From assembly GCA_015488295.1 (NCBI GenBank), contig WFOC01000012.1, forward strand, positions 1-38,086: a DNA stretch of 38,086 bases. Direction: 5' to 3'. A program made the translations under genes and the position numbers. The first letter of the stretch is position 1. Every line of letters starts with the position of its first letter. Positions 314-37,415 of the stretch are shown here, one piece after another. The notes under the pieces were generated by a model. That model saw only the letters and a list, made by a program, of their open reading frames with translations. It searched no databases and was not told the origin of the DNA. This DNA comes from Gammaproteobacteria bacterium (GTDB lineage: Bacteria > Pseudomonadota > Gammaproteobacteria > SZUA-229).

Positions 314-487
314 TCACTTGTTGTTAAACACTTTTATAACATATACGAGCAAACCAGCTGCGGCAAGCATGACGATGTGTTCCGTATGAAGAAAGCTGTG
401 TACTGATTCATTTGGTAGGTGACCGGAATGCGCCAATGCTGATGTTGATGTCAGTAATAATATTGTTGTGAGTAGTTTTTTCATCAT
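314..487 (-). CDS. 57-aa signal-peptide/membrane peptide at the end of the uptake hydrogenase operon
   Basis: A short gene reading MMKKLLTTILLLTSTSALA, then HSGH...FLHTEH, then a hydrophobic stretch (about IVMLAAAGLLVYVIKVF), ending NNK-stop. The first 19 residues look like a signal peptide with cleavage after ALA; otherwise they are a first membrane helix. The start ATG overlaps the hynL stop codon (CAATGATGA), so translational coupling with the hydrogenase large subunit is likely. The mature peptide would be about 38 residues, with a His-rich periplasmic head and one transmembrane segment. The FLHTEH-xxMLA pattern faintly recalls the histidine motifs of HupE/UreJ nickel permeases, but it is far too short to be one. 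Function unknown; a hydrogenase accessory or metal-handling role is inferred from context only. Confidence 0.6.
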   Translation of the reverse strand: MMKKLLTTILLLTSTSALAHSGHLPNESVHSFLHTEHIVMLAAAGLLVYVIKVFNNK

Positions 488-2220
488 TGCACCTTTACTT
501 TAATAATTTCATTTCCATCCGGATCGGTTAGATGCACGGCGCAGGCGAGGCAGGGGTCGAAGCTGTGGATGGTGCGCAGGATTTCGACGGGCTGTTTTGT
601 GTCATACAAGGTGTGGTTGTCCTGCAGTGCGGCTTCATAGGCTCCTGGCTGACCTTTGTCATCTCTTGGCCCGGCGTTCCATGTGCTTGGTACTACCGCC
701 TGATAATTTTTGATGACTTCATCTTTGATGACGATGTAATGTGCAAGGGCACCACGGGGGGCTTCCATAAAACCAACCCCCTGTGCGCTTTTGGGCCAGG
801 AGGAAGGTTCCCATAAAACTTCGTTGAAGGTTTTGGTGTCACCAGCTTTGAGGTTGGTCATCAGTTCGTTATACCAGCCCTGCATGGCATCGGCGATGAT
901 TTTGGTTTCCAGAGTGCGGGCGGCGGTGCGACCCAGTGTGGAGAATAAAGCGGTGACAGGCACATCGAGTTTGTTCAGTGTCATGCCGACCAGCTCTCTG
1001 GTTTGTTCATGGCCGCTGGCATATAACATCAGTACCCGTGCTAATGGCCCGACTTCCATGGCGTGGCCTTTCCAGCGTGGTGATTTTAACCATGAGTATG
1101 ACTGGTCAACATCAAGGTGCTGGTACGGCGGTTTTGGCCCGGTATAATTCAGATTGGTTTCACCATCATATGGATGCAGTCCGGCTTCTTTGCCTTTTTC
1201 ATAGTCGTACCAGGAATGTGCGATGTATTCTTTTATCTCGTCAGCGGCATTCATGTCAACGTCGTGAATGGTGCTGATGTCGCGGTTTAAAATGGCACCG
1301 GGTGGAATCATAAAGCCGGAAGGATTTTCCATGCCGTTAGATGGAAAGTCACCGAAGGTGAGGAAGTTGCCCAGGCCTTCACCGCGTGTTGTCCAGTCTT
1401 TATAAAAACCGGCGATGGCTAAAGTGTCGGGCACATAAACCTGATCAACAAAGGTTTTCATCTGCTGGATGATGTCCTGCACCATGGACAGCCTGTTCAT
1501 GTTGATGGCGGAATCGGAATTTAAGTCGATGGCACAGGGAACACCGCCGACAACAAAATTCGGGTGCGGATTTTTGCCGCCAAAAATCGTGTGCAGGCGT
1601 GCGACATCACGCTGCCAGGAAAGCGCTTCCAGGTAATGTGAGACGGCCATCAGGTTTGCTTCGGGCGGCAGTTTGTAAGCCGGGTGTCCCCAGTAAGCGT
1701 TTGCAAAAATACCCAGCTGACCGGATTCAACAAAACCTTTTAGTTTCTTTTTCATGTCGGCGAAATAACCGGGTGATGATTTTGGGTAACTGCTGATCGA
1801 TTGCGCAAGTTCGGAAGTGGCTTTTGGATCGGCGCTTAATGCGGAGACCACATCTACCCAGTCCAGTGCGTGCAGGTGATAAAAATGCATGACATGATCA
1901 TGGATGTATTGCGCGCCGTTCATCAGGTTGCGGATCAGGTCGGCATTTTTCGGTACTTTATAATGCAGTGCATTTTCTACTGCGCGAATAGAGGCCAGCC
2001 CGTGCACCAGTGTGCAGACACCACAGATACGTTGCGTGAATGCCCAGGCATCGCGCGGGTCGCGTCCTTTCAAAATGGTCTCGATGCCGCGCACCATGGT
2101 GCCGGATGAATAGGCGCTTTTAATCCGGTTGCCATCCATCTGGGCTTCGATACGCAGGTGGCCTTCGATACGGGTTATCGGGTCAACTACAATTCTCTCG
2201 TTTTCACCTGATTCGCTCAT
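484..2220 (-). CDS. hynL: uptake [NiFe]-hydrogenase large subunit (Isp-linked HynL type)
   Basis: Catalytic subunit that binds the NiFe(CN)2CO centre and oxidises H2. The N-terminal motif RICGVC gives nickel ligands Cys66 and Cys69. The C-terminal motif DPCLACAVH gives Cys557 and Cys560, with His563 at the maturation cleavage point and a 15-residue tail (LTDPDGNEIIKVKVQ) to be removed by a protease. At 578 residues it is normal for a group 1 large subunit. It has no signal peptide and would be exported with HynS, which carries the Tat signal. It is separated from the small subunit by isp1, isp2 and an extra gene, like the hynS-isp1-isp2-hynL layout of Thiocapsa-type enzymes. It is the second-to-last gene of the operon. 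Confidence 0.93.
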   Translation of the reverse strand: MSESGENERIVVDPITRIEGHLRIEAQMDGNRIKSAYSSGTMVRGIETILKGRDPRDAWAFTQRICGVCTLVHGLASIRAVENALHYKVPKNADLIRNLMNGAQYIHDHVMHFYHLHALDWVDVVSALSADPKATSELAQSISSYPKSSPGYFADMKKKLKGFVESGQLGIFANAYWGHPAYKLPPEANLMAVSHYLEALSWQRDVARLHTIFGGKNPHPNFVVGGVPCAIDLNSDSAINMNRLSMVQDIIQQMKTFVDQVYVPDTLAIAGFYKDWTTRGEGLGNFLTFGDFPSNGMENPSGFMIPPGAILNRDISTIHDVDMNAADEIKEYIAHSWYDYEKGKEAGLHPYDGETNLNYTGPKPPYQHLDVDQSYSWLKSPRWKGHAMEVGPLARVLMLYASGHEQTRELVGMTLNKLDVPVTALFSTLGRTAARTLETKIIADAMQGWYNELMTNLKAGDTKTFNEVLWEPSSWPKSAQGVGFMEAPRGALAHYIVIKDEVIKNYQAVVPSTWNAGPRDDKGQPGAYEAALQDNHTLYDTKQPVEILRTIHSFDPCLACAVHLTDPDGNEIIKVKVQ

Positions 2221-5793: not shown

Positions 5794-5849
5794 TCTGCTT
5801 TCCCCGGCCCTGACGTAATTGTTTTTCGAATGGCTGCTTATGTCATTTT

Positions 5850-6281: not shown

Positions 6282-6283
6282 GA

Positions 6284-6835
6284 TCACCTCAAAACCTCAC
6301 GACTCCTGACAGAATAAGCATCCAGTGCAGAAGGTTCCTGATCTGTACTAACTTTTTGCCATTGATCGAGTAATTTCACCGCTTCGTTGACGGCTTCGTC
6401 CAGCGCATTTTTAACCGCAGTGGTTGGTTGCATGCCCCAGCCTATTTTGTCAGGCTGAATGCCGATCAGTGCGCGGTTTTTCGGGAGATGGTCGGTCAGG
6501 CGGGCGATGTCCATCAGGTCGATTAATCCGACCTCGTGGGCGCTGTGTTTTGTGCGGCCAAGAAATTCATCAAAAGTTTTGCCGACAAAGGTATTTACCG
6601 TGCCCGCAGTTTGCTGCAGTTCAGTGGCATCAAATACGATGAGGTTGGTGCAGTCTTCAATCCATACTGCAAGGGTGAAACTGAGTGTGCCGCCATCGAT
6701 AAAGTTTAAGCTGCTTATATCAGGTCGTATATTAGAATAGACTGATTGAAGGTGGTTGAGTGCGTGGATGCCCGCACCTTCGTCTGTGAGTAAGGTGTTG
6801 CCAATCCCAAGGATCAAAGTCTCATCACGGTTCAT
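6284..6835 (-). CDS. hupD: hydrogenase maturation endopeptidase (HupD/HybD family) for the uptake enzyme
   Basis: Nickel-dependent check protease that removes the C-terminal tail of the large subunit after nickel insertion. It starts with LILGIGNTLLTDEGAG, whose Glu is the first metal ligand. VFDATEL contains the Asp ligand and SAHEVGLIDL the His ligand. At 183 residues it is slightly longer than HybD because of a C-terminal tail. ATG at 6835 is preferred; a TTG one codon earlier is also in frame. It is the first gene of the minus-strand operon, so its expected substrate is HynL (484-2220). The group 3b enzyme elsewhere in the window carries its own protease domain. Confidence 0.9.
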   Translation of the reverse strand: MNRDETLILGIGNTLLTDEGAGIHALNHLQSVYSNIRPDISSLNFIDGGTLSFTLAVWIEDCTNLIVFDATELQQTAGTVNTFVGKTFDEFLGRTKHSAHEVGLIDLMDIARLTDHLPKNRALIGIQPDKIGWGMQPTTAVKNALDEAVNEAVKLLDQWQKVSTDQEPSALDAYSVRSREVLR

Positions 6836-6891
6836 CAAGTTCCCCGCATAGATTTAATGTACCTTTGTATCAGTGTCTCGTGTTACTGTTG

Positions 6892-6967: not shown

Positions 6968-7192
6968 ATGTGTTTAGGAATACCCATGCAAATAAAATCC
7001 ATTGATGGTTTCATGGCGCGCTGTGAGGCCAAAGGAGTCGAGCGTGATGTCAGCCTGTTTATGATGCAGGATGATAAACTCGAAGTGGATGATTTTGTTG
7101 TAGTGCACGTAGGATATGCTATTCAGAAAATTTCGTCGCAGGAAGCGCAAACTGCATGGCAGCTTTATGACGAGATGCTAGGGAAGCCATAA
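6968..7192 (+). CDS. hypC: HypC, hydrogenase maturation chaperone
   Basis: Small chaperone of 74 residues starting MCLGIPMQI. Cys2, after Met removal, is the essential ligand that carries the Fe(CN)2CO group with HypD and contacts the large-subunit precursor. The body (VVHVGYAIQKISSQEAQTAW) is typical. An upstream in-frame ATG at 6956 would add four residues and bury the needed N-terminal cysteine, so 6968 is the correct start. It is the first gene of the plus-strand hyp operon and is followed by hypA after a single base. Confidence 0.93.
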   Translation: MCLGIPMQIKSIDGFMARCEAKGVERDVSLFMMQDDKLEVDDFVVVHVGYAIQKISSQEAQTAWQLYDEMLGKP

Positions 7193-7193
7193 A

Positions 7194-7556
7194 ATGCACG
7201 AGCTTGCTATCTGTCAGTCGTTAATGAGTCAGGTGACAGAGATTGCACGGGAACACGATGCGCAAAGCGTAACGTCTGTTATTGTTGGCATCGGGCCGCT
7301 GTCGGGAGTTGAAGCGAGGCTTTTAAAAAATACGTATTCGATAGCCCGTGCTGGCACTGTCGCAGAAAATGCAGAACTGGTTATCGAGTGCTTGCCATTA
7401 CGCGTCAGCTGTACACAGTGCAATAGCGAGTCGGAAGTGCTGCCAAATAAACTGACATGCAAGCAATGCGGTGACTGGCGAACTACCTTGATCAGTGGTG
7501 ATGAGATGATGCTTCTCAAGGTGGAGATTGAGAAGCAAATGAAAAGTGAAAAATGA
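7194..7556 (+). CDS. hypA: HypA, nickel delivery protein
   Basis: HypA inserts nickel into the hydrogenase large subunit together with HypB. The protein starts MHELAICQSL, with the N-terminal MHE nickel site, and has a structural zinc site of two CxxC pairs (CTQC and CKQC) near residues 74-94. At 120 residues it is normal. The last residues (QMKSEK) and the stop codon are encoded inside one arm of an inverted repeat (7538-7554), so the C-terminus may be repeat-derived. Confidence 0.92.
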   Translation: MHELAICQSLMSQVTEIAREHDAQSVTSVIVGIGPLSGVEARLLKNTYSIARAGTVAENAELVIECLPLRVSCTQCNSESEVLPNKLTCKQCGDWRTTLISGDEMMLLKVEIEKQMKSEK

Positions 7557-7627
7557 AAAATAAATAAACATTAAAAACCACAGACACAGGTACATTGTTT
7601 TTGCTTTTAAATTTTTCACTTTTCATT
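7538..7627. repeat. 17-bp perfect inverted repeat between hypA and hypB
   Basis: The arms 7538-7554 (AATGAAAAGTGAAAAAT) and 7611-7627 are perfect reverse complements enclosing 56 bases. The enclosed part contains ACCACAGACACAGGTAC, which resembles the CACAGAGGCACA-type element found in two inverted copies around 11927-12104. The unit looks like a small palindromic insertion between two cotranscribed genes. Confidence 0.6.
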
Positions 7628-7667
7628 GCCCGATTAGGGAACACTAAAATTATTTGGAGGATACACC

Positions 7668-8513
7668 ATGTGTGACACCTGCGGATGTAACATAACCCAC
7701 GGCAACAAGGGCCTGATTCAGCCTGGCGGCAAACTTCATAAAACTGAAAGCGGCAGGGAAGCGGTTACTGTTTTGCACAGCCTGCTGCATGAGAATGATC
7801 ACACTGCCAGACATAACCGTGATCATTTTGACTATCACAATGTGCTGGCGATCAACCTGATGTCATCCCCCGGCGCAGGCAAAACATCTTTGCTTGAAGC
7901 GACTATCCAGATATTGAACGATGATGCGAATCAGAACCAGTTGCGCATCGCGGTGATTGAAGGTGATCTTGAAACTGAAAACGATGCAGAGCGTATCCGT
8001 AAACATGGTGTCACCGCGATACAGATCACCACCGGCAGTGCCTGTCATCTGGATGCGCACATGGTGCATGAGGCATTACATAATCTTGATCTTTCACAGT
8101 TTGATATTGTGTTTATCGAAAATGTCGGCAACCTGGTCTGCCCGGCCAGCTTTGATCTTGGTCAGCATTTAAATGTGACTCTGCTGTCGGTGCCCGAAGG
8201 TGATGATAAACCTGCGAAGTATCCGGTGATGTTCCGCACCGCCGATCTGGTGATGATCAGCAAATGTGACCTGTTGCCGGTGCTTGATGATTTTGATCCG
8301 GAAAAAGCCGAAGCTTATTTGCACGACATTGCCAGCACTGCGCCTATCATTGCACTGTCATCAAAAGATCATTCCGGCATGGATGTGTGGATTGAATGGC
8401 TTGCGCATCAGATAGAAGAACGTGTTCGCTATCTCGAAAAACATCCGGTGCAGGTGCATGACCACGACCACCATCATGAACATATGCATAACGATGAAGA
8501 AACGCCTGCATGA
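7668..8513 (+). CDS. hypB: HypB, GTPase and nickel-binding maturation protein
   Basis: GTP-dependent nickel insertase of 281 residues. It opens with the high-affinity nickel motif CDTCGC (residues 2-7). A P-loop SSPGAGKTS follows at residues 66-74, then EGDLETENDAERI, the metal-site region GSACHLDAHMV, IENVGNLVCP and NKxD-like SKCDLLP. A histidine-rich tail (HDHDHHHEHMH) ends the protein and may store nickel. In many HypB proteins the histidine-rich segment lies near the N-terminus, so its C-terminal position here is uncommon. The start has a strong Shine-Dalgarno (TTGGAGGATACACC). It overlaps hypD by four bases. Confidence 0.94.
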   Translation: MCDTCGCNITHGNKGLIQPGGKLHKTESGREAVTVLHSLLHENDHTARHNRDHFDYHNVLAINLMSSPGAGKTSLLEATIQILNDDANQNQLRIAVIEGDLETENDAERIRKHGVTAIQITTGSACHLDAHMVHEALHNLDLSQFDIVFIENVGNLVCPASFDLGQHLNVTLLSVPEGDDKPAKYPVMFRTADLVMISKCDLLPVLDDFDPEKAEAYLHDIASTAPIIALSSKDHSGMDVWIEWLAHQIEERVRYLEKHPVQVHDHDHHHEHMHNDEETPA

Positions 8514-9622
8514 CGAGTGGTGTAAAACAATGGGATGCAAAACAATGGCTGGAAAAAATCCATGCGCTGCCGCATAAAAATGACAAAATAAAAATCATGA
8601 ATGTGTGCGGCGGCCACGAGCGTTCGATCACCATGGCCGGCCTGCGAAAAGTGTTGCCGGATTATCTTGAACTGGTTCCCGGTCCCGGTTGCCCGGTGTG
8701 CATCTGCCCGGAAGAAGATATTTTTGAAGCCATACAGCTGGCATTAAACGAAGATATTATCCTGGTCGCGTTTGGTGACATGTTGCGGGTGCCGGTCAAC
8801 GTGGCCAAAGTCAAAGCGCGCACACTGGAGCAGGCCAAAACGCAGGGTGCAGATATTCGACCGGTTGCATCACCCACCGAAGCGGTGAACATCGCAAAAC
8901 AAAATCTGGATAAAGCTGTGGTGTTTTTTGCCGCCGGTTTTGAAACCACTACCGCACCGGTGGCAGCGATGATGGTTGAAGGTGTGCCTGAAAATTTATC
9001 CGTATTGCTGTCCGGCCGTTTGACCTGGCCGGCAGTGGCCATGCTGCTGGAATCGGGGGAACCCGGATTTGATGCGCTGGTTGCGCCGGGGCATGTCTCC
9101 ACTGTTATGGGGCCGGAAGAATGGGCGTTTGTTGTGGATGAACACAGCATTCCGGCAGCGGTCGCCGGTTTCAAACCGGAAAGCCTGCTGGCAGCGATGT
9201 ATTCGATTTTACGTCAGCTCAACGAAGGTCGTTATTTTCTGGATAACTGTTATCCGCAGCTGGTAAAAGCTGGTGGCAATAAATCGGCGCAGGCGCATCT
9301 TAACAAAGCAATGAATATCTACGATGCCAACTGGCGCGGTGTCGGCATCATCCCGCAATCCGGTTACATGCTGGACCAAAACTACAGCCAGTGTGATGCC
9401 AGAAAACGTTTTCCCAGTTATGCCGATGACGCACGCAAACGCGCCGGGCAGATGCCGCCGGGCTGTGACTGTGCGCAGGTGGTGCTTGGTAAAATTTATC
9501 CCAATGAATGCCGTCTGTTTGGCAAAGCCTGTGTGCCGAGAAATCCAATCGGGCCGTGCATGGTTTCAGATGAAGGAGCCTGCCGCATCTGGTGGGCCGG
9601 TGGCATGCGTGAATCGGCGTGA
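8510..9622 (+). CDS. hypD: HypD, Fe(CN)2CO scaffold protein
   Basis: Iron-sulfur protein of 370 residues that, with HypC, assembles the Fe(CN)2CO group. Conserved family motifs are present: NVCGGHERSI, PGPGCPVCICP, FAAGFETT, and near the C-terminus GCDCAQVVLGKIYPNEC, which with CVPRNPIGPCMVSDEGAC holds the 4Fe-4S cluster ligands. The start ATG overlaps the hypB stop (ATGA), so the two are translationally coupled. Confidence 0.94.
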   Translation: MTSGVKQWDAKQWLEKIHALPHKNDKIKIMNVCGGHERSITMAGLRKVLPDYLELVPGPGCPVCICPEEDIFEAIQLALNEDIILVAFGDMLRVPVNVAKVKARTLEQAKTQGADIRPVASPTEAVNIAKQNLDKAVVFFAAGFETTTAPVAAMMVEGVPENLSVLLSGRLTWPAVAMLLESGEPGFDALVAPGHVSTVMGPEEWAFVVDEHSIPAAVAGFKPESLLAAMYSILRQLNEGRYFLDNCYPQLVKAGGNKSAQAHLNKAMNIYDANWRGVGIIPQSGYMLDQNYSQCDARKRFPSYADDARKRAGQMPPGCDCAQVVLGKIYPNECRLFGKACVPRNPIGPCMVSDEGACRIWWAGGMRESA

Positions 9623-9640
9623 TCATTTATTTTTCTGCAG

Positions 9641-11908
9641 ATGAAAACAGAAACTGAAACGTCTGCCAGAAAAATAATATTCTCCGGGCAGGTGCAGGGG
9701 GTTGGTTTTCGGCCATTCATTTATCGACTTGCGATCAAACATGAATTAAGCGGCTGGGTAAAAAACTGTGTTGGTGTGGTTGAAATACATGCGCAGGGAC
9801 AGCCACAAAACCTGAAAAATTTCTTAAACGATATTTTTGATAAAAAACCGCCATTAGCAAAACCCGAGCTTGCATCAGACAAACTGGTTGAACAGGGCGA
9901 TTTTAAAAGTTTCAATATCCTGCAAAGCCAGCAACAGGGTGAGGTGCACATCAGCGTGCCGAGCGATCTTTTTTTATGTGATGATTGTCTGGCTGAATTA
10001 AACCAGCCATCAGATCGCCGTTATCGTTATCCGTTCATCAACTGCACGCAATGTGGGCCGCGTTATACCCTGATACGAAGCCTGCCGTATGATCGCGCCA
10101 ATACCACCATGACGGATTTTGATTTATGCCCGGCCTGTCTGGCGGAATATAAAAATCCGCTGGACCGGCGTTTTCATGCGGAACCTGTAGCCTGTCCGGC
10201 GTGTGGCCCTTCACTGACTTTTTCCATGGCTGAGATGCAAATCGAAAATACTGAAGCGGCGCTAAACAAAGCCATCGATGTGATACGTGATGGCAAAGTG
10301 CTTGCGGTGAAAGGTGTCGGTGGTTATCACCTGATGTGTGATGCGACAAATACAGAAGCGGTGAGCCGCTTACGAAAAAACAAACCACGACCAGATAAAC
10401 CACTGGCGATTATGTTTCCCGCGCCGGTGACCACCCCCTTTCAGGTCGCACAGCAATTTGTAAGCTTAACGAAAAAAGATAAAGATTTTTTGTTGTTGCC
10501 GGCGCGCTCAATTTTACTGGTGGATAAAAAGAAAAATTCTGCACTGTCTGAGCAGATTGCACCGGGCTTGAATGAAGTGGGTGTGATGCTGCCCTACAGT
10601 CCGCTGCATTATCTCCTGTTAAATGATCTTGGCCGGCCGCTGGTGGCAAGCTCGGCAAATATCAGCGGCGAGCCGGTGTTAACTGATAACTTTGATGTCG
10701 AAAAACGACTGGCGCATGTGAGTGATGCCTGTCTGCATCATAACCGGCCGATACAGCGCCCGGTGGATGATCCGGTGTATCGAAGCATTGCAGGAAAAAA
10801 GCGGCCGATTCGAACCGGTCGCGGTTGCGCGCCGATGGAATTGCTACTGCCATTTGAGTTGCCGCACCCTGTGCTTGCTGTTGGTGCCCACATGAAAAAC
10901 ACCATCACGCTGGCATGGAAAAACCGGGCCATTATTTCACCGCACATCGGTGAGATGGATACTGTTCGCAGTCTCAAGGTTTTTGAAAATACGGTGAATG
11001 ATTTACAAAAACTTTATGATGTAAAAGTTGAAGGTATCATCTGTGACGCGCACCCCGGTTACAGCACAACACGTTGGGCGAAAAAACAGAAGCTTCCTGT
11101 GCAGCAAGTGTTGCATCATCACGCACATGCATCGGCGGCATATTATGAATGCCGCACAGAAAAACCTGTCATCGTTTTTACATGGGATGGTGTCGGTTAC
11201 GGCGAAGATGGCACACTCTGGGGCGGCGAAATGTTTCTGGGGAAACCGGGGCAGTGGCAACGTGTCGCCAGTATGCGTGAATTTTATCTTCCCGGCGGTG
11301 ATAAGGCCGGGCGGCAGCCGTGGCGAAGTGCTGCGGCATTATGCTGGCAGGCCGGGCTTGCCTGTGAAAACATTCCGCAAAAAGATCGTCTGTTAAAGCA
11401 GGCATGGCAAAAAAAAATCAACGCGCCGCAATCAAGATCGGTTGGACGTTTGTTTGATGCTGCTGCTGCATTAACCGGCGTGTGCAGTGAGGCGAGCTTT
11501 GAAGGCCAGGGACCGATGCTGTTTGAAGCACTGTGCGGTAAAGCCAATGAGGGTTTTAATGACCGGGTCGCGCTTGAATCAGAAGTGATAAATAATTTGC
11601 TGATAACAGACTGGCAGCCATTGATTGCGGTGATGCTGGATTCGTCTTTAACTATAAAAACACGCGCTTTATTATTTCATCATTCACTGGCGCATAATAT
11701 CTGGCAACAGGCAATAATCATGCGTGAAAAATATGGTGTGAACACGGTCAGTTTTTCCGGCGGCGTTTTTCAGAATCGTGTTTTAACTGAAAAAGCGATG
11801 GCATTATTATCGGATGATGGTTTTGATGTTTGTTTGCCCGAATTGATTCCGGTCAATGATGCAGGGATTAGTTTCGGGCAAGTTATGGAATATAGTTTTA
11901 AGAGATAA
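9641..11908 (+). CDS. hypF: HypF, carbamoyltransferase for cyanide ligand synthesis
   Basis: HypF uses carbamoyl phosphate and ATP to make the thiocarbamate on HypE that becomes the cyanide ligands. Domains in order: acylphosphatase (residues 10-90, FSGQVQGVGFRPF), two zinc-finger units (CDDC, CTQCGPRYT, CPAC, CPACGP; about 108-185), a YrdC-like domain (about 200-390, KGVGGYHLMCDA, DKPLAIM, ASSANISGEP), and a Kae1-like carbamoyltransferase domain (about 400-755) with HHHAHASAAYYE and FSGGVFQNRVL. At 755 residues it is full length. It follows hypD after 18 bases and is followed by repeat-rich DNA before hypE. Confidence 0.94.
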   Translation: MKTETETSARKIIFSGQVQGVGFRPFIYRLAIKHELSGWVKNCVGVVEIHAQGQPQNLKNFLNDIFDKKPPLAKPELASDKLVEQGDFKSFNILQSQQQGEVHISVPSDLFLCDDCLAELNQPSDRRYRYPFINCTQCGPRYTLIRSLPYDRANTTMTDFDLCPACLAEYKNPLDRRFHAEPVACPACGPSLTFSMAEMQIENTEAALNKAIDVIRDGKVLAVKGVGGYHLMCDATNTEAVSRLRKNKPRPDKPLAIMFPAPVTTPFQVAQQFVSLTKKDKDFLLLPARSILLVDKKKNSALSEQIAPGLNEVGVMLPYSPLHYLLLNDLGRPLVASSANISGEPVLTDNFDVEKRLAHVSDACLHHNRPIQRPVDDPVYRSIAGKKRPIRTGRGCAPMELLLPFELPHPVLAVGAHMKNTITLAWKNRAIISPHIGEMDTVRSLKVFENTVNDLQKLYDVKVEGIICDAHPGYSTTRWAKKQKLPVQQVLHHHAHASAAYYECRTEKPVIVFTWDGVGYGEDGTLWGGEMFLGKPGQWQRVASMREFYLPGGDKAGRQPWRSAAALCWQAGLACENIPQKDRLLKQAWQKKINAPQSRSVGRLFDAAAALTGVCSEASFEGQGPMLFEALCGKANEGFNDRVALESEVINNLLITDWQPLIAVMLDSSLTIKTRALLFHHSLAHNIWQQAIIMREKYGVNTVSFSGGVFQNRVLTEKAMALLSDDGFDVCLPELIPVNDAGISFGQVMEYSFKR

Positions 11909-11926
11909 AACATTTTTCATTACAGG

Positions 11927-12104
11927 CACAAAGAGTACAGAGGAAAACCTTTTATTGTTTTCTGTCATCCTGACCGGAGCGAAGCGTAGTGGAAGGATCT
12001 TGCCAACACCTGTTTAACATCAGGTAGTAAGATCCTTCACTATCGTTCAGGATGACAGCGAACCTGGTACAAAGGATATTTTATTTTCCTATGTGCCTCT
12101 GTGG
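11927..12104. repeat. nested dispersed repeat between hypF and hypE
   Basis: The 229-base gap holds two nested inverted repeats. The inner one (11963-12057) starts TGTCATCCTGACCGGAGCG and ends TTCAGGATGACA. Its arms also share GTAGTGGAAGGATCTT-type sequence, and the loop carries a small ACCTG/CAGGT hairpin. A related copy lies at 31132-31273. The outer arms (CACAAAGAGTACAGAGGAAAA at 11927 and its diverged complement ending at 12104) enclose it. The unit can form a long stem and may reduce read-through into hypE. No gene is present. Confidence 0.7.
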
Positions 12105-12137
12105 TGAAAATATCTTAACAGCTGGGATAGATAAACA

Positions 12138-13136
12138 ATGCAAGACACACACATATCATTAGCGCACGGTAATGGCGGTCGTTACATGCGCGAACTCATC
12201 GAAGAGATTTTTGCGCGCCATTTGACTAATCCTGAACTGGATGTACAGGCCGATGCTGTGCCGATTGCGCTTGATGGTGATGTGCTGTTTACCACCGATG
12301 GCTTTACCGTGCAGCCGCTGGAATTTCCCGGCGGCAACATCGGTTCGCTGGCCGTGCATGGCACCACTAATGATCTTGCTGTGGCGGGCGCTATACCAAA
12401 ATATCTAAGTCTGAATGCGTTTATCGAAGAAGGCCTGGAAATCGCCACGCTGGAACGCATCATAAAAACACTGGCAGAAACCGCTGCCGAGATTGGTGTC
12501 AAAGTGGTCTGCGGTGATACCAAGGTTTTACGTCGTGGCGAAGGTGGCGGTTTGTACCTGGCGACCACCGGTGTCGGTATCCGCCATGGGCACGTGATGT
12601 CGATGAAAAATATTCAACACGGTGATGCCATCATCGTTAGTGGCCCGGTCGGTGATCACGGTATTGCCGTGATGCTGGCGCGTGAAGAATTCGGCCTGCG
12701 TGGTGACATTCAATCCGATGCTGCCAGCGTATTAAAATTAACCACCGCCGCGATGGATTTTAAAGGTTTGCGTTTCATGCGTGACCCGACGCGCGGCGGC
12801 ATTGCCACTGTCTGTGCCGAATTATTTCGTGCTACCGGTTTTGGCGTGCGCCTGTTACAGGAAAAACTTCCGGTGCGTGATGCCGTGCAATCGGTGTGTG
12901 ATATGCTCGGTTACGACCCGATGTATCTTGCCTGTGAAGGTCGTGTTGTTGCGGTGGCGGCACCGGCTGATGCGCCGGCATTGCTGAAAACCTGGCAAAA
13001 CCTTGAACAGGGCAAAGATGCTGCCATCATAGGCAGTATTGATGCGGACACCCGCTGTGTTTTAATGCAGACCGATATTGGTGGTGAACGCATACTGGAA
13101 GAACTCGAAGACGACCCTTTACCCAGGATTTGCTGA
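12138..13136 (+). CDS. hypE: HypE, thiocyanate-forming maturation protein
   Basis: PurM-like protein of 332 residues that dehydrates a C-terminal thiocarboxamide to thiocyanate, giving the cyanide ligands. It starts with the family pattern LAHGNGGRYMRELIEEIF and has FTTDGFTVQPLEFPGGNIG, HGTTNDLAVAGA, VCGDTKV and MRDPTRGGIATV. It ends PRIC-stop with the modified C-terminal cysteine. It closes the hyp order C-A-B-D-F-E and is separated from hypF by the repeat unit. A possible ribosome site is GCTGGGATAG. Confidence 0.94.
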   Translation: MQDTHISLAHGNGGRYMRELIEEIFARHLTNPELDVQADAVPIALDGDVLFTTDGFTVQPLEFPGGNIGSLAVHGTTNDLAVAGAIPKYLSLNAFIEEGLEIATLERIIKTLAETAAEIGVKVVCGDTKVLRRGEGGGLYLATTGVGIRHGHVMSMKNIQHGDAIIVSGPVGDHGIAVMLAREEFGLRGDIQSDAASVLKLTTAAMDFKGLRFMRDPTRGGIATVCAELFRATGFGVRLLQEKLPVRDAVQSVCDMLGYDPMYLACEGRVVAVAAPADAPALLKTWQNLEQGKDAAIIGSIDADTRCVLMQTDIGGERILEELEDDPLPRIC

Positions 13137-26566: not shown

Positions 26567-27673
26567 ATGAAACCGAGCCATTACTTTTTTCAGACGGATC
26601 AGCTTGCGCAGTTGCTGGGTGAGCTGCAGGACAGGGGATATATCTGCATCGGGCCGCAGGTACGTGATGGTGCTATTGTTTATGACGAACTTCATTCCAT
26701 CAAGCAACTACCCCGAGGCGTTAACGACGCACAGGCACCCGGTCGTTATAGTTTAAAAACCGGTGTCTCTTTGAAATTTTTCGACTGGGCGAATGGCGCG
26801 CAGGCGATCAAACCCCTGTTGTTTTCAGCGCGTGAAAAACTATGGCAAAGCCGGCAGTCTGCGGATGGCAAACTCTCATTTGAAACCCCGGAACCCCGTT
26901 CAAAACCGATAGCGATTATTGCTGCCCGAGCCTGCGATATTGCCGCTATGAAAATTCAGGACCAGCATTTTTTGCAACAGACGTTTGTCGATCCGTATTA
27001 TCAGGTGCGGCGAAAAAATCTGTTGATCATCGCGGTGAATTGCGCACGCCCGGCCGACACCTGTTTTTGTCATTCGAGCGGTGACGGGCCGTTTGTTGAT
27101 GATGGTGCTGATATTGTGCTGACCGAACTGGAAAGCGGTTTTTTAATTGAAGCGCAGAGCACTCAGGGCGAAGAACTGCTCGCCGGTTTATCATTGCAGG
27201 ATTGCACAGAACAGCAACTTGAAGAACAGGCATCGATAAAGGCTGGCGCATCAAAACAGAAAAAACAGTTGCCGAAGTATGATATCAGGTTACGCCTGCG
27301 TCATGAATTGAACAATGATTTCTGGCATGAAATTGCGGCTAAATGTCTGAGTTGCGGCAACTGGACTTCGGTTTGTCCCACCTGTTTCTGTCACAGTGAA
27401 AATGATGTGCCCGAGCTGGATGGAAAATCATCTGGCCATTATCGCGAGTGGGATTCCTGCTTCACTCAGGGGCACAGTTATATTCACGGCATTACCATTC
27501 GAAGTGAAACCAGTCAGCGTTACCGGCAGTGGCTGACGCATAAATTCAGCAGCTGGCATGAGCAATATGGCCGTTCCGGTTGTGTCGGTTGCGGACGTTG
27601 CATTAGCTGGTGCCCGGTGGGCATAGACGTGACTGAAATGCTGGCGAATTTTGAGGGGAGACGTGGTGTCTGA
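26567..27673 (+). CDS. group 3b [NiFe]-hydrogenase beta subunit (HydB-like, two 4Fe-4S clusters)
   Basis: A 368-residue electron-transfer subunit of cytoplasmic NAD(P)-linked hydrogenases (sulfhydrogenase beta type). The first 280 residues are a family-specific domain ([36 protein letters not shown]). The C-terminus holds a bacterial-ferredoxin-like pair of clusters: [16 protein letters not shown] near 272 and [16 protein letters not shown] near 346. It passes electrons between the NiFe small subunit and the flavin subunit. It is the first gene of a four-gene operon and overlaps the gamma gene by eight bases. Confidence 0.88.
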
Positions 27674-28511
27674 GCGGCAGGTTAATCCTTATCAGCCACA
27701 TGAGGCGGTTATTCTTGAGCGTATTCAGGAAGCGCCCAGGCTGTTCACGCTGCGATTAAAACTTACCGAGCAAATGCTTCAGGATGCTTATGAATTCGAA
27801 CCCGGCCAGTTCAACATGCTGTATTTATACGGCGTTGGTGAAATTCCGATTTCGATAGTCTCTGACCCGGTTGACAGTCATATCATTGATCACACAATTC
27901 GTGTCGTTGGCCGCGTTACCCGGGGCATGGCTGAACTTGAAGCGGGTGACCGCATCGGTTTGCGTGGTCCTTATGGTCGTGGCTGGCCGATGTCTGAGTC
28001 CAGGCAAAAAGATGTGGTGATTGTTACCGGTGGCCTGGGTTGTGCGCCGGCCGTTTCGGTTATTAATTATATTGAACAAAGACGTGAGCAGTATGGCCGG
28101 CTGAATATTGTTCAGGGTGTGAAACACAGCGCCGATTTCATCTGGAAAGATCGTTATGATAAATGGCGTGAGCTGCCGGACACCCGGGTGCTGCTGGCTG
28201 CCGATGTCGGTGAACCGCTATGGCCCTGGCATGTCGGGCCGGTCACCTCGCTTTTTGATCAGCTTGAATTTGATCCGGACAATGTTGTTGTGATGATGTG
28301 CGGCCCGGAGGGCATGATGCGCGTGGTCTGTCATCACATGCTGGATAATCGCGTGCCGGCCTCACAGCTTTTTCTGTCGATGGAAAGAAACATGCAATGT
28401 GCGATTGGCCACTGCGGGCATTGCCAGTATGGCGACAAGTTCATCTGCAAGGATGGCCCGGTGCTTCGTTACGACAGGGTGCGTGAGCTGTTTGAGAGCA
28501 AAGGTTTTTAA
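27666..28511 (+). CDS. group 3b [NiFe]-hydrogenase gamma subunit (FAD/NAD(P)-binding reductase)
   Basis: Ferredoxin-NADP+ reductase-like diaphorase. An N-terminal FAD-binding barrel (residues up to about 100, [11 protein letters not shown]) is followed by [12 protein letters not shown] nucleotide-binding domain follows with [16 protein letters not shown] and [12 protein letters not shown], and a C-terminal 2Fe-2S motif with four cysteines lies in [23 protein letters not shown]. This layout is shared with PyrK/sulfhydrogenase gamma proteins. I chose GTG at 27666 because GAGGGGAG lies just upstream and it overlaps the beta stop (GTGTCTGA). A GTG at 27663 and a TTG at 27651 are alternatives. Confidence 0.88.
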
Positions 28512-28562
28512 TCACATGATGTCGATTCATGACTTGTTCAGAGCTTTCCCGGAGGCGCAGGC

Positions 28563-29339
28563 ATGAGCAAACCGAGCGTAGCGATACACAAGTTCAGTTC
28601 CTGTGATGGTTGCCAGCTGGCGCTGCTTAATCTGGGTGAACCGTTATTACAGTTAGCCGAGCTGGTCGATATTCTGCATTTCGCTGAAGCCGGGCCGCTG
28701 GATGAAAACGCAAAAGTTGATATTGCGATAGTGGAAGGCAGTGTGTCGACTTTGCACGATATCGAGCGGCTTAAAAATATTCGTGCCAACAGCGGCCTTT
28801 TGATGAGCATCGGTGCCTGTGCGACCTCTGGCGGATTACAGGCGCTGCGTAACATGGCGGACACTCAGCAATGGATTGCCGATATTTATGCCAGTCCGGA
28901 CGTTATCGACAGCCTGGATAAAAGCACGCCGATAAAAGATCATGTCAATGTTGATCTTGAACTCTGGGGTTGCCCGGTTAATCAGCGTCAGATACTGATG
29001 GCCATACGCGCGCTGCTGTTCGGTGTTATGCCGGTTGATGAGCATGACAAAGTCTGCATGGAATGCAAACGTCAACAAACGGTTTGTACGATGGTGACAA
29101 AAAATGAACCATGTATGGGGCCGGTGACACGCACAGGTTGTGGCGCACTTTGCCCCAGCGTCGGGCGGGATTGTTACGGCTGCTATGGCCCGGCCGAAAA
29201 TGCAAATACGCAGGCCATGGCAAACCGCTTGCAGGGGCTGGGTCTGGTTGATGCGGAAGTTGCCAGGCGGTTTCTGTTTATCAACAGTGGTGCTGATGCG
29301 TTTCACCGGCAGGGTGTGTTGAGCAGGGAGAAGAAATAA
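28563..29339 (+). CDS. group 3b [NiFe]-hydrogenase small subunit (delta, HydD-like)
   Basis: A 258-residue iron-sulfur small subunit without Tat signal or membrane anchor, so cytoplasmic. The proximal-cluster motif FSSCDGCQLALLNL is at the N-terminus, with GACATSGGLQALRN, WGCPVNQRQ and a C-terminal cysteine set (CMECKRQQTVC, EPCMGPVTRTGCGALCP, CYGCYGP) for the remaining clusters. The GCGALCPSVGRDCYGC block is characteristic of group 3 small subunits. Its last codon runs directly into the large-subunit start (TAA then ATG, no spacer). Confidence 0.9.
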   Translation: MSKPSVAIHKFSSCDGCQLALLNLGEPLLQLAELVDILHFAEAGPLDENAKVDIAIVEGSVSTLHDIERLKNIRANSGLLMSIGACATSGGLQALRNMADTQQWIADIYASPDVIDSLDKSTPIKDHVNVDLELWGCPVNQRQILMAIRALLFGVMPVDEHDKVCMECKRQQTVCTMVTKNEPCMGPVTRTGCGALCPSVGRDCYGCYGPAENANTQAMANRLQGLGLVDAEVARRFLFINSGADAFHRQGVLSREKK

Positions 29340-31118
29340 ATGGCAAGCGATACCATCAGAATTCGAGTTCCTGTGCTGGCCCGTGTTGAGGGTGAAGGCG
29401 CGCTCGAGCTGAATATCGAGAATCGGCAGATCACCGATCTTAAGTTACGCATTTTTGAGCCACCAAGGTATTTTGAAAAATTTCTGGAAGGGCGCAATCA
29501 TTACGATGTGCTTGATACGGTAGCGCGCATCTGCGGCATCTGCCCGGTTGCTTACCAGATGAGCGCAACGCATGCGATTGAATCAATCTTTGAGGTGACA
29601 ACCTCGCCCTGGATTCGCGCCATGCGCCGCCTGCTTTATTGTGGCGAATGGCTGCAAAGTCATAGCCTGCATATTCACCTGTTAGCCGCGCCCGATTTTC
29701 TGGGCTTTAACAGCATTATCCAGATGTCCGGCCAGTATGGAGATGAAGTACGGCGTGGTTTGAAACTGCAGGCGCTGGGTAATGAGCTGATTGCTTTATT
29801 CGGTGCCCGCTCGGTGCATCCGGTTGGTGTCAGGCTTGCCGGTTTCAGCCGAGCGCCGGATCAAAAAAAAGCCGCTGCGTTATTGTCACGTATCACAGAG
29901 GCAAAACAGGATGCTGTTGAGCTGATTCACTGGCTGGATAATCTGGACCTGCCAGACGATGAACAGGACTTTGTTTCTGTCGCCCTGCATCATGATGATG
30001 AATACCCTTTTAATGAAGGCCGTCTGATCAGCGATAATGGTCTGGATATAGATATCGTCGAATTTGAAAATCACTTTCACGAAAAACATATTGAGCACAG
30101 CACAGCGTTGCATTGTTTGCTGGATGGAAAACCATATCTGGTCGGCCCGCTGGCACGGATTAATTTAAATTCTGCGCAACTACCTGATGAAGTCAAAACC
30201 GTCATGCAGGTATTGAAAACCCGCTTTCCGTCAAAAAACATGTTTCACAGCATTATTGCCCGGGCAATCGAAATTTATTATGTGCTGATCGAAGCGGAGC
30301 GGTTATTGAGCCAGTATGAATATACCGATGACTGCTGCATGAAATTTTCTGTCAGAGCAGGCACCGGCTACGGCTGCACTGAAGCGCCGCGTGGTTTTTT
30401 ATGGCACCGCTACGATATGGATGAAAAAGGCTGTGTCAGCAAAGCTGTTATTGTGCCACCAACCAGCCAGAACCAGGCGCGTATCGAGCAGGACTTGAAA
30501 AACTCGCTGATTAATTTCGGGCTTGATAATAAAAAAAGTGATCTACAGCTACACGCTGAAAAAGTAATAAGAAACTATGATCCCTGCATTTCCTGTGCAA
30601 CCCATTTTCTTGATCTCAATTTGCTTCGTGATGGCATCGCTGAAAAAAGTGATGATGAAACCGAATTGATGAAATTTAACAGCGCGGATTTATCCCGAAC
30701 CGCCATTATCGGTGTTGGCTCACCCGGCGCAGGGGATGAACTCGGCTGGCAGATGATCGACCGGTTATCACAAAATAAATCTATCCGGCTTCTCAGGCAG
30801 AAAGGTTTGAGCCTGTTCAAGCTGGATCGTCCAGGGCTGGCATTCATTGAAAATATAAAACCGTATGACTATCTGATTATTGTTGATGCCATAAAATCCG
30901 GTGAAGCAGGTGAGCCGTTTATCTGTATTGATGCCAGCCGACTGCCATCAACACTCAAGCGATTATCAAGTCATGAATCTGGCGTGCTTGAAGTTGCCGC
31001 GTTAGCAGAATCCCTGCAGATAAAACCCGAGCAGCTTTTGATTATCGGCGTATCGAGTATTCAAAATATTTTTATCGAGAATATAGTCAATATGTTCTCC
31101 GCCTTTTTGCAAAAATAA
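29340..31118 (+). CDS. group 3b [NiFe]-hydrogenase large subunit fused to a maturation protease
   Basis: Catalytic subunit of a cytoplasmic NAD(P)-linked hydrogenase. Residues 1-422 are a normal group 3b alpha subunit with RICGICP (Cys65, Cys68) and DPCISCATH (Cys416, Cys419, His422). Such proteins normally end shortly after this His, which is where the maturation protease cuts. Here translation continues for 170 residues: a linker (423-452), then a complete HycI/HybD-type protease, TAIIGVGSPGAGDELGWQMIDRL, with predicted metal ligands Glu467 (DELG), Asp516 (IIVDAIKSG) and His545 (SSHESGVLEVAAL). The protease would therefore be the C-terminal extension that has to be removed. Met444 could be a relic of an earlier separate start. 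There is no stop codon or frame change between the two parts. It is the last gene of its operon. Confidence 0.9.
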   Translation: MASDTIRIRVPVLARVEGEGALELNIENRQITDLKLRIFEPPRYFEKFLEGRNHYDVLDTVARICGICPVAYQMSATHAIESIFEVTTSPWIRAMRRLLYCGEWLQSHSLHIHLLAAPDFLGFNSIIQMSGQYGDEVRRGLKLQALGNELIALFGARSVHPVGVRLAGFSRAPDQKKAAALLSRITEAKQDAVELIHWLDNLDLPDDEQDFVSVALHHDDEYPFNEGRLISDNGLDIDIVEFENHFHEKHIEHSTALHCLLDGKPYLVGPLARINLNSAQLPDEVKTVMQVLKTRFPSKNMFHSIIARAIEIYYVLIEAERLLSQYEYTDDCCMKFSVRAGTGYGCTEAPRGFLWHRYDMDEKGCVSKAVIVPPTSQNQARIEQDLKNSLINFGLDNKKSDLQLHAEKVIRNYDPCISCATHFLDLNLLRDGIAEKSDDETELMKFNSADLSRTAIIGVGSPGAGDELGWQMIDRLSQNKSIRLLRQKGLSLFKLDRPGLAFIENIKPYDYLIIVDAIKSGEAGEPFICIDASRLPSTLKRLSSHESGVLEVAALAESLQIKPEQLLIIGVSSIQNIFIENIVNMFSAFLQK

Positions 31119-31131
31119 TCATTTGATATTT

Positions 31132-31273
31132 TGTCATCCTGACCGGAGCGCAGCGTAGTGGAAGGATTTTAAGTGTCGTATCATGCGGGGTTTAACATCT
31201 TTTGGTAATGGCTCCTGTAATATCCTGCATCCATGCAGAGATCCATTCCGCTACCGCTTCAGCCAGGATGACA
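31132..31273. repeat. second copy of the TGTCATCCTGACCGGAGCG palindromic repeat
   Basis: Starts TGTCATCCTGACCGGAGCGC and ends AGCCAGGATGACA. The arms also share GTAGTGGAAGGAT-type sequence, imperfectly paired. It matches 11963-12057 closely in the left arm but has a longer, different centre. It fills much of the 338-base gap after the hydrogenase operon and may act as a terminator-like stem. The rest of the gap holds the FNR site and leader of nrdJa. Confidence 0.7.
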
Positions 31274-31361: not shown

Positions 31362-31456
31362 GCACAATATGTAGTACCCGATAATAATAATAACACTATA
31401 TATAGCTAATTGGCCGGCGTGGTTAATTGGCTGTTATAGTCAAAGGAGATCGCTTG

Positions 31457-34400
31457 ATGAAGACAGTTACACCCCCCGTTATCAATACTGATGAACGTAT
31501 CGAAATCCCGCTACAACCTGCTTCTGAAGACATCTGGGAACGAAAATATCAGCTGAAAGACACGCTTGGTAAAGCTGTCGACCTGTGTGTTGAAGGCACC
31601 TTTACCCGCGTTGCGCGCGCCCTGTCAGAAATTGAAGACACCCCTGAGAAACAGGAATACTGGTACGAACGGTTTCTCTGGGCGCTGAAGCAGGGCGCGG
31701 TGCCCGCCGGGCGTATCATTTCTAACGCCGGTGCGCAGCAATACAAGCCTGCTACTTCAACCATTAACTGCACCGTTTCAGGAAAAATTCACGATTCCAT
31801 GGACGACATTTTGCAGAAGGTGCATGAAGCCGGCATGACATTAAAATCCGGCGCTGGCATCGGTTATGAATTTTCCACGCTGCGACCGAATGATGCCTAC
31901 GTCTCCGGTTCCGGTGCTCTCACCTCCGGCCCGCTGTCGTTCATGGATATTTATGACAAGGTCTGTTTTACCATTTCTTCTGCCGGTGGTCGCCGTGGTG
32001 CGCAGATGGCGACTTTCGATGTCGGCCATCCCGACGTGCTGGATTTTATCCGCGCCAAACGTGAAGATGGTCGCCTGCGCCAGTTCAACCTGTCGTTGCT
32101 GATCACCAGCGAATTTATGGAAGCAGTAAAAAATGACGCGCCGTGGCCGCTGGCTTTTCCGCTGACCGAAGAAGAAATCGAAATCCACAATGTCGATCTG
32201 CAGGACCCGGAAAAAGTCATCTGGCGCAACTGGCCGATCAAGGACAACTACATTGAAAACGAAGAAGGCAAGGTCGCCTGCCGCGTCTATCGCACCATCG
32301 ATGCCGGCAAGCTGTGGAACGTCATCATGACTTCAACCTATGAATACGCTGAGCCGGGTTTCATTCTCATCGATGAATACAACGAGAAGAACAACAACTG
32401 GTTTTGCGAAAATATCCGCACCACCAATCCATGCGTTACCGCTGATACCTGGGTGCAAACATCCACAGGACCACGCCAGGTTTTAGACCTTGTCGGCAAT
32501 GCCTTCAGTGCACGGGTCGATGGCATCGACCATGCCAGTGGCCAGAAAGGCTTTTTCAAAACTGCGACAAAAGAAATCGTCCAGCTTCAAACCGCCGAAG
32601 GTTATAGTCTGAAATTAACCGCCGATCACCGTGTGCGACGTGTCTCGCGTTTTACCCGTTACAGCACAGACACACAATGGTGCGAAGCCGGCAAACTTCA
32701 GGCGGGTGATCGCGTGTTGCTCAATGACCATCGTGCGAATGCAGAATGGCCCGGAAAATACGGTAAAGATGAAGGATACCTGATGGGGCTTTTACTGGGC
32801 GACGGCACGCTGAAAAAAGACGAAGCCGTGCTTTCGGTGTGGAAAGCACCGGCAGTGGTCAACGGCACAACGGCCACCTGTTCGACAGGTGTTGCCGCAG
32901 TCATGCAGCAGGCATTGAGCGCAGCAGAGCAGCTACCACATCGTGCCGATTTTAAAGGCTGGTCAGAAATTGCCGGTCGCAATGAATACAGATTGTCGAC
33001 CGCCGCCATTCGCGATGTCGCCTTTGATCTTGGCATGTCATCGGGCAACAAAACAGTGACCGCTGAAATAGAACAGACATCCAGTGATTTTTATAAAGGC
33101 TTTCTTCGCGGCCTGTTCGATGCGGATGGCTCGGTGCAGGGCAGTCAATTGAAAGGTGTGTCGGTGCGTCTGGCACAATCCGACGAAAGTTGCCTGCAGG
33201 CAACGCAAAGAATGTTACTGCGACTTGGTATCGCATCGGTTATTTATCGAAACCGTCGTGCGGCAGGAACCAGCCTGTTGCCAGATGGCAAGGGCGGCAA
33301 GGCTGAGTACAATACCGCCGCGCAGCACGAGTTGGTTATCAGCGGTGAAAATCTGCGTCGCTATTCCGATTTGATCGGCTTTGCTGACAGCGACAAACAA
33401 AACAAACTGGAACGCTGCCTGGCTTTGTACAAACGTGCACTTAATCGTGAACGTTTTACTGCAAGAGTGATTTCTGTAAGCAAAGCCGGCGTAGAAGATG
33501 TTTATGATGTGCAGGTGCCCGGCATCAATACTTTTGATGGCAACGGTTTGCATGCGCATAACTGTGGCGAGCAGGGCCTGCCCGCATACGGTGCCTGTCT
33601 GCTGGGTTCCATTAACTTAACGCATCTGGTGAAAGAGCCGTTCACCGAAAACGCCAGCTTCGACTGGGACACTTACCGCGAAGTGGTGAAAGTGTTTACC
33701 CGCATGCTGGACAACGTGGTCGAAATCAACGGCCTGCCGCTGCAACAGCAGCGTGATGAGATCGAAAGCAAGCGCCGTCATGGCATGGGCTACCTGGGTC
33801 TGGGTTCAGCGCTGACCATGATGGGTGTACGTTACGGTTCGGATGAGTCACTGGAATTTACCGAGAAAGTCACCCGTGAACTGGCGCTGGCCGGCTGGGA
33901 AGCGGCGCTTGATCTGGCCAAAGAAAAAGGCGCTGCGCCGATTCTTGAGCAGGATTTTGAAGTGACCTCCGAGATGTTAAGCCGCCGCCCCGAGATGAAA
34001 AAAGACGGCTGGCAGGTGGGCGCAACGATCAAGGGTAAAGTATTGCACGCGCGTTACAGCCGCTATATGCAGAAGATTGCCGAGGTGAATCCGGAGCTGG
34101 TTGCCGAGCTGGAAAAAGTTGGTGCGCGTTTTACGCATCACAGCTCTATCGCACCCACCGGCACCATTGCGCTGTCCGTTGGCAACAACGCCAGCAACGG
34201 CATCGAACCGAGTTTTGCGCATCATTATTCGCGCAACATTATTCGTGAAGGCAAAAAGAGCAAGGAGAACGTCGATGTCTGGTCGTTCGAACTGCTGGCT
34301 TACCGCGAGATGATCAACAAAAATGCCAAACCTTATTCAGAAGAAGCGGGCGAAAAACTGCCGGACTATTTCATCAGTGCTGATGATGTCACACCAAAAC

Positions 34401-34744
34401 AGCATGTTGATATTCAGGCCGCTGCGCAAAAATGGATCGATTCATCGATTTCAAAAACCGCCAACATCCCGACCGATTATCCTTACGAGGATTTCAAGAA
34501 TATTTATCTGTACGCCTACAAAAAAAATCTGAAAGGCTGCACCACTTTCCGCTTTAATCCGGAAGTGTTTCAGGGGGTACTGGTGAAAGAGTCTGATCTG
34601 GAAAACACCACCTACCGTTTTTCACTGGAAGACGGCACCGTTATCGAAGCTAAAGGCAACGACGAGATCGACTACGATGGCGAGAAACATACCGCAGCAA
34701 ATTTATATGATGCATTGAAAGAGGGTTATTACGGCAAGTTCTAG
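31457..34744 (+). CDS. nrdJa: class II (B12-dependent) ribonucleotide reductase, NrdJa part, with intein
   Basis: Reduces ribonucleotides using adenosylcobalamin, independent of oxygen. The precursor is 1095 residues; removing the 377-residue intein leaves 718. Visible motifs are INCTVSG (first active-site Cys), KSGAGIGYEFS, the radical site NP|CGEQGLPAYGACLLGSINL, and APTGTIALSVGNNASNGIEPSF. The C-terminal thiol pair needed for re-reduction is absent and is encoded by the next gene, as in the split NrdJa/NrdJb of Pseudomonas aeruginosa. The ATG at 31457 follows AAAGGAGAT at good spacing; a TTG 30 bases upstream is unlikely. Confidence 0.92.
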   Translation: MKTVTPPVINTDERIEIPLQPASEDIWERKYQLKDTLGKAVDLCVEGTFTRVARALSEIEDTPEKQEYWYERFLWALKQGAVPAGRIISNAGAQQYKPATSTINCTVSGKIHDSMDDILQKVHEAGMTLKSGAGIGYEFSTLRPNDAYVSGSGALTSGPLSFMDIYDKVCFTISSAGGRRGAQMATFDVGHPDVLDFIRAKREDGRLRQFNLSLLITSEFMEAVKNDAPWPLAFPLTEEEIEIHNVDLQDPEKVIWRNWPIKDNYIENEEGKVACRVYRTIDAGKLWNVIMTSTYEYAEPGFILIDEYNEKNNNWFCENIRTTNPCVTADTWVQTSTGPRQVLDLVGNAFSARVDGIDHASGQKGFFKTATKEIVQLQTAEGYSLKLTADHRVRRVSRFTRYSTDTQWCEAGKLQAGDRVLLNDHRANAEWPGKYGKDEGYLMGLLLGDGTLKKDEAVLSVWKAPAVVNGTTATCSTGVAAVMQQALSAAEQLPHRADFKGWSEIAGRNEYRLSTAAIRDVAFDLGMSSGNKTVTAEIEQTSSDFYKGFLRGLFDADGSVQGSQLKGVSVRLAQSDESCLQATQRMLLRLGIASVIYRNRRAAGTSLLPDGKGGKAEYNTAAQHELVISGENLRRYSDLIGFADSDKQNKLERCLALYKRALNRERFTARVISVSKAGVEDVYDVQVPGINTFDGNGLHAHNCGEQGLPAYGACLLGSINLTHLVKEPFTENASFDWDTYREVVKVFTRMLDNVVEINGLPLQQQRDEIESKRRHGMGYLGLGSALTMMGVRYGSDESLEFTEKVTRELALAGWEAALDLAKEKGAAPILEQDFEVTSEMLSRRPEMKKDGWQVGATIKGKVLHARYSRYMQKIAEVNPELVAELEKVGARFTHHSSIAPTGTIALSVGNNASNGIEPSFAHHYSRNIIREGKKSKENVDVWSFELLAYREMINKNAKPYSEEAGEKLPDYFISADDVTPKQHVDIQAAAQKWIDSSISKTANIPTDYPYEDFKNIYLYAYKKNLKGCTTFRFNPEVFQGVLVKESDLENTTYRFSLEDGTVIEAKGNDEIDYDGEKHTAANLYDALKEGYYGKF
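32432..33562 (+). mobile_element. intein with LAGLIDADG homing endonuclease in NrdJa
   Basis: An in-frame 377-residue insertion between Pro325 and the catalytic radical Cys of NrdJa. Splicing elements are all present: Cys1 (CVTADTWVQTSTG), block B TADH (residues 63-66), the C-terminal block VYDVQVPGINTFDGNG, penultimate His and terminal Asn (HAHN), and Cys as the +1 residue. The endonuclease motifs GYLMGLLLGDGTL and GFLRGLFDADGSV keep both acidic residues, so homing activity may persist. Because the +1 residue is the radical Cys itself, the reductase cannot work until splicing occurs. Confidence 0.93.
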
Positions 34745-34757
34745 ACAGAGCGGGATT

Positions 34758-34782
34758 GCACTTCCAGGAGGGGTGGAAGTGC
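34758..34782 (+). other. perfect hairpin between nrdJa and nrdJb
   Basis: GCACTTCCA and TGGAAGTGC form a 9-bp perfect stem with the purine loop GGAGGGG, starting 14 bases after the nrdJa stop. No T-run follows, so it is not a simple terminator. It may set the NrdJa:NrdJb ratio by RNA processing or by occluding ribosomes. That role is inferred. Confidence 0.55.
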
Positions 34783-34818
34783 AGAAACGGAATAATAAAA
34801 AATTATCAGGTGAAGAAA

Positions 34819-37181: not shown

Positions 37182-37415
37182 ATGAGCGAATTATCAAAAA
37201 GATCGACTGTTTACTTTGAAGCAGAGATTCATCAGGCGCTTAGGATTAAAGCTGCGACTACCAACCAATCTGTATCCGAGGTGGTTAATGAGGCTGTTCG
37301 TGTTGCCCTGAGCGAAGACCAGGAAGATTTAAAAGCATTTTCACAAAGAGTTAATGAGCCAACATTGAGTTATGAGGAGTTGCTAGAGGATTTAAAATCA
37401 CATGGCAAGATATAG
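37182..37415 (+). CDS. ribbon-helix-helix antitoxin
   Basis: A 77-residue protein. The N-terminal RHH DNA-binding fold (KRSTVYFEAEIHQALRIKAATTNQSVSEVVNEAVRVAL) and an acidic C-terminal tail (SYEELLEDLKSH) fit antitoxins of RelB/ParD/CopG type. The toxin gene starts 14 bases before its end, in another frame, so the pair is translationally coupled. The palindrome in its promoter suits autoregulation. Confidence 0.85.
   Translation: MSELSKRSTVYFEAEIHQALRIKAATTNQSVSEVVNEAVRVALSEDQEDLKAFSQRVNEPTLSYEELLEDLKSHGKI

Follow-up and report, generated by a model that had tools for sequence, protein, structure and literature searches.

A gammaproteobacterial [NiFe]-hydrogenase large subunit fused to its predicted maturation protease

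Introduction

The maturation proteases of [NiFe]-hydrogenases act on the large subunit only after it has received its nickel, using a cleft lined by a pair of conserved aspartates and a histidine, and in the known enzymes closure of the active site requires removal of the C-terminal tail (PMC12134894). In the literature, docking of the protease is independent of this tail, and an uncut tail holds the active site open. How a protease recognizes its own large subunit and senses nickel is still debated. A full-text search of the open-access literature found no description of a natural hydrogenase–protease fusion, and the words "fused" and "fusion" are absent from a 2025 review of cofactor assembly. 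Because the search covered open-access papers, automatic annotations of such an architecture may exist in protein databases.

The present study concerns such a fusion, encoded in a 38,086-nucleotide stretch of gammaproteobacterial DNA (contig WFOC01000012.1; hereafter, the window). A sequence-only reading of the window had proposed that a [NiFe]-hydrogenase large subunit is joined there to a HycI/HybD-type protease and had added that no characterized example was known, a remark that holds within the open-access papers searched.

Results

The fused gene (Table 1) comprises 592 stop-free codons, and its product passes the cut-offs of both protein families: PF00374 scores 100.6 bits (Pfam cut-off 25.8), PF01750 (HycI) 26.2 bits over residues 499–574 (Pfam cut-off 23), and TIGR00072 49.1 bits over residues 456–572 (NCBIfam cut-off 47.45). 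The large-subunit part bears two CxxC metal-binding motifs, RICGIC and DPCISC, whose four cysteines (Cys65, Cys68, Cys416, and Cys419) are invariant in all 22 fused proteins compared. Its final motif, DPCISCATH, ends at His422, the residue named earlier as the cleavage site and likewise invariant in the 22. The equivalog cut-offs for ShyA/HydA are missed (NF040828 and NF040832 score 254.4 vs 700 and 222.2 vs 880, respectively); the group 3b label for this alpha subunit rests on the nearest NCBIfam models and the nearest solved structure; we call it group-3b-like. The gene is the last in a beta–gamma–delta–alpha operon (26567–31118), in which the Fe–S beta, FAD/NAD gamma, and delta subunits correspond to the group 3b set, and its ATG follows the delta stop codon without a gap.

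Table 1. Coordinates of the fused gene, its parts, and hydrogenase-related features of the window
Feature	Position	Strand	Basis or remarks
Group 1 hydrogenase large subunit	484..2220	-	Belongs to the group 1 hydrogenase of the next row
HupD-type protease of a separate group 1 hydrogenase operon	6284..6838	-	Family search
Cofactor genes hypC (6968-7165 matched), hypA, hypB, hypD, hypF, hypE	6968..13136	+	
Beta subunit, 4Fe-4S, HydB/ShyB-like	26567..27673	+	Pfam/NCBIfam
Gamma subunit, FAD/NAD-binding, HydG/ShyC-like	27651..28511	+	Pfam/NCBIfam
Delta (small) subunit, Oxidored_q6, HydD/ShyD-like	28563..29339	+	Pfam/NCBIfam
Fused gene, group-3b-like [NiFe]-hydrogenase alpha + HycI/HybD-type protease, 592 aa	29340..31118	+	Open frame, PF00374 + PF01750/TIGR00072
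Large-subunit domain, residues 1-422	29340..30605	+	PF00374; metal Cys65, Cys68, Cys416, Cys419; predicted cut after His422
Predicted C-terminal tail + linker, residues 423-450, begins FLDLNLLRDG	30606..30689	+	Comparison with unfused tails
Protease domain, residues 451-592	30690..31115	+	PF01750, TIGR00072, HybD profile and fold matches; invariant Asp466, Asp516, His545

Several further features of the window may be recorded. The group 1 operon (484–6838, reverse strand) carries HmcE/TmcC-like membrane and DsrK-like Fe–S subunits between its small and large subunits, an Isp-type layout, as well as HupH-like and HupD-like accessory genes. An intergenic repeat, GTCATCCTGACCGGAGCG (31132–31273; 11964–11981), occurs as two exact copies and a third, inverted copy with 3 mismatches, with 0.02 chance matches expected; the inverted pair lies directly 3′ of the fused gene, its copies 104 bases apart. 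Beyond it, NrdJ, an adenosylcobalamin-dependent ribonucleotide reductase (31427–34744, forward strand), is interrupted at about residues 337–712 by an intein that bears a LAGLIDADG endonuclease domain, and the TSCPD C-terminal part of NrdJ forms a frame of its own (34756–35556). A small ORF (37402–37665, forward strand) matches the ParE toxin of parDE toxin–antitoxin systems.

With one open frame, both families above their cut-offs, and about 32 gammaproteobacterial genomes carrying it by our count, the proposed fusion is true and conserved. The fusion recurs, as a single frame, in 21 further full-length genes (49–74% identity): homologues from the same genus and family share 65–74% identity over their full length and those from more distant Gammaproteobacteria 49–56%, while one more fused copy, cut by a contig end, is 81% identical over its part. 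Of 369 Gammaproteobacteria drawn evenly, 88 carry this alpha subunit, and 11 of these carriers, representing seven families, have the fusion; outside this class, none was found among the alpha subunits inspected from 398 Pseudomonadota genomes. In the fused relatives, the two domains follow each other without an intervening stop codon, and independent genomes at 50–74% identity support the reading frame across the junction. One of the 11 genomes is a single 3.11-Mb contig rated 100% complete, which, together with the many independent genomes, rules out an assembly error. One copy that appeared split (in G005) reflects a contig break, with 127 bases shared across it, and not a real division of the gene.

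Unfused alpha subunits end in a short tail of the form FLxLxVxR, mostly 8–10 residues long, and a protease of the same subfamily is mostly encoded directly downstream of them, commonly with an ATGA, GTGA, or TGATG overlap. The pairs of Legionella, Halomonas, Thiodiazotropha, and Acidithiobacillus resemble the fusion in their alpha subunit (∼57–64% identity), in the subfamily of the cognate protease, and in the order alpha–protease, but differ in that they are two genes, often overlapping, and in the tail of mostly 8–10 residues. The fused proteins retain the beginning of the FLxLxVxR tail, followed by a variable linker, and their first protease strand ends 22–42 residues beyond the cleavage histidine. 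The fusion probably derives, within the Gammaproteobacteria, from an adjacent and often overlapping alpha/protease pair. That it arose more than once is a tentative reading, which we hold to be possible but somewhat doubtful: a quick tree of alpha subunits needs three changes, in a main fused clade of 18 (support 99), in L043/L045/L047, and in L049/L062; however, a tree constrained to hold all fused proteins in one group passes the AU test (p-AU 0.746), with a likelihood 18 units higher. In a few unfused relatives (L044, L048, L130/L156, L157, and L158), a stop codon divides alpha and protease, both lying in one frame; such pairs are possible steps toward or away from fusion.

In seven genomes of 97–100% completeness (G026, G034, G071, G121, G141, G145, and G196), TIGR00072 matches nothing beyond the fused domain, as judged with this single family model at an E value of 0.001, a search that a very divergent protease could escape and that missed the fused domain of G372 itself. 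All seven possess hypC and hypD, and five of them yielded no further hydrogenase large subunit (G141 and G145 are G081 and G083 in the large-subunit search, with identical contigs and positions). In the remaining genomes to which both searches were applied, every second full-size protease is accompanied by a group 1 hydrogenase; in the genome of the window, the sole additional maturation protease found is the HupD-type protein of the group 1 operon. Because the fused domain stands alone in the seven genomes, a separate protease is probably unneeded for the fused hydrogenase, which agrees with the earlier suggestion that this enzyme would be spared the need for HupD.

As judged from its sequence, the fused protease domain is intact, with a predicted nickel-reading cleft of Asp/Asp/His, and the sequence-only description of a full HycI/HybD-type protease is borne out by its family scores, predicted fold, and conserved triad. 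The domain matches the HybD profile (1cfz) with an E value of 1.5e-15. Modeled by itself (pLDDT 86.6), the protease part matches a HybD-like fold at Foldseek rank 1 and superimposes on Escherichia coli HybD (1cfz) with a Z-score of 14.0 and an rmsd of 3.0 over 135 residues; the loop around His545 has a pLDDT below 50 in the models. In addition to the four cysteines and His422, Phe423, Leu424, Asp466, Asp516, Ser543, and His545 are invariant in 22 of 22 fused proteins, and Asp466, Asp516, and His545 are invariant across 54 aligned protease domains; the ligands are thus kept in the fused relatives. The earlier assignment of three metal ligands stands for Asp516 and His545 but not for Glu467: position 467 is E, Q, D, T, S, A, K, Y, or R among the 22 proteins, a variability that rules it out, and the invariant Asp466 is the likely ligand in its place. 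The corresponding nickel ligand of HybD is Glu16 (PMC2670836). Automatic alignments place the gap relative to HybD ambiguously, and we take Asp466 to be the counterpart of Glu16 because its D-x-x-G spacing to the following glycine matches.

The fused protease domain evolves somewhat faster than its free form. At 60–65% alpha identity, fused proteases share 24.6% identity vs 33.1% for free ones, and pN/pS, with synonymous sites saturated, is 0.41 for the protease domain, 0.15 for alpha, and 0.46 for the linker. It might be that tethering eases recognition and thereby permits the faster change. Several fused domains score below the Pfam/TIGR cut-offs. The protease part of one fused gene (L062:4055-5872) is so divergent that the Pfam model misses it, and it retains Asp/Asp/His.

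Discussion

Collectively, these comparisons make a protease that is supplied by the precursor itself, and that removes itself after nickel insertion, the best explanation of the fusion, and one that we advance with good confidence on sequence grounds. The fusion would turn the removable tail of the large-subunit precursor into a dedicated maturation protease. In this model, the Hyp proteins would first assemble the NiFe(CN)2CO cofactor and place it in the large subunit; the protease on its tether would then sense the inserted nickel via Asp466, Asp516, and His545 and cut after His422, just ahead of Phe423. Next, the large subunit would close over the cofactor and join delta, gamma, and beta, with a 170-residue protease fragment being released. 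The protease most likely acts on its own chain or on a neighboring identical chain, so that one protease would be supplied per precursor; action in cis is plausible as the simplest use of the tether. Cleavage, its position, its nickel dependence, and its occurrence in cis are features that we infer. The more specific proposal, of a natural self-processing [NiFe]-hydrogenase in which a nickel check is followed by a single self-cut in cis and no separate protease is needed, is one toward which we lean with some reserve.

The fused protease could instead act in trans only, whether freed or still attached and perhaps on other hydrogenases, with the tether setting its dose. Known maturation proteases work in trans, as might a domain once it is released; moreover, two genomes of 69–71% completeness (G060 and G067) have a group 1 hydrogenase, yet only the fused protease was found in them. 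We nevertheless regard action exclusively in trans as unlikely, since genomes of good completeness that have a group 1 hydrogenase also retain a dedicated HupD, and since the run of residues from the cleavage site to the first protease strand seems, by our estimate, sufficient for self-contact. More improbable still is that the fused domain is never removed and now serves as a structural or regulatory C-terminal domain. Its faster change relative to free proteases and the low family scores of some members would fit such a role, but the invariance of His422-Phe423-Leu424 and of the protease triad, the several genomes without another protease, and the need for tail removal before active-site closure in known enzymes (PMC12134894) speak against it. 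Finally, that two proteins are made, from an internal start codon or through a stop or frameshift masked by assembly, is very hard to credit: an in-frame TTG-ATG does lie at residues 443–444 of the window copy, and some relatives (L044, L048, G189, G324, and G213) encode the protease after a stop in the frame of alpha, but in 7 of the 22 fused genes the stretch from the cleavage histidine to the first protease strand contains no ATG, GTG, or TTG, which excludes separate translation of the protease from there in those seven, the start seen in the window copy is not conserved in others, and the single-contig genome is in agreement with numerous independent assemblies.

A natural one-chain precursor fixes both the partner and a 1:1 ratio, so that nickel sensing, cleavage, and release become accessible to study and the contact between precursor and protease can be modeled or solved. 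Production of active hydrogenase in other hosts may also become simpler, because no matching protease need be supplied.

Among the known systems, the soluble group 3b (sulf)hydrogenases of Pyrococcus furiosus (HydBGDA/ShyBCDA; 9nf0, 9nez) share with this locus the beta–gamma–delta–alpha set and the metal motifs, and the predicted alpha fold resembles that of the SHI alpha subunit (TM 0.92 by target length); in contrast to the fused protein, however, the P. furiosus alpha subunit, of 428 aa in the PDB record, has no attached protease. The protease domain resembles HybD, HycI, and HupD (1cfz, 2e85, 5zby) in predicted fold, Asp/Asp/His cleft, and family scores above cut-off. It differs from them in that its loop before the first cleft aspartate is one residue shorter than that of HybD and in that a DRPG motif is common in its subfamily. 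The stable complex of large subunit and protease in Salmonella Hyd-5 (PMC5299533) represents a similar, cofactor-dependent pairing of precursor and protease. Yet that complex is noncovalent and formed by two separate proteins, and HybD, HycI, and HupD are likewise separate from their substrates, whereas the protease described here is covalently joined to the subunit that it is predicted to mature.
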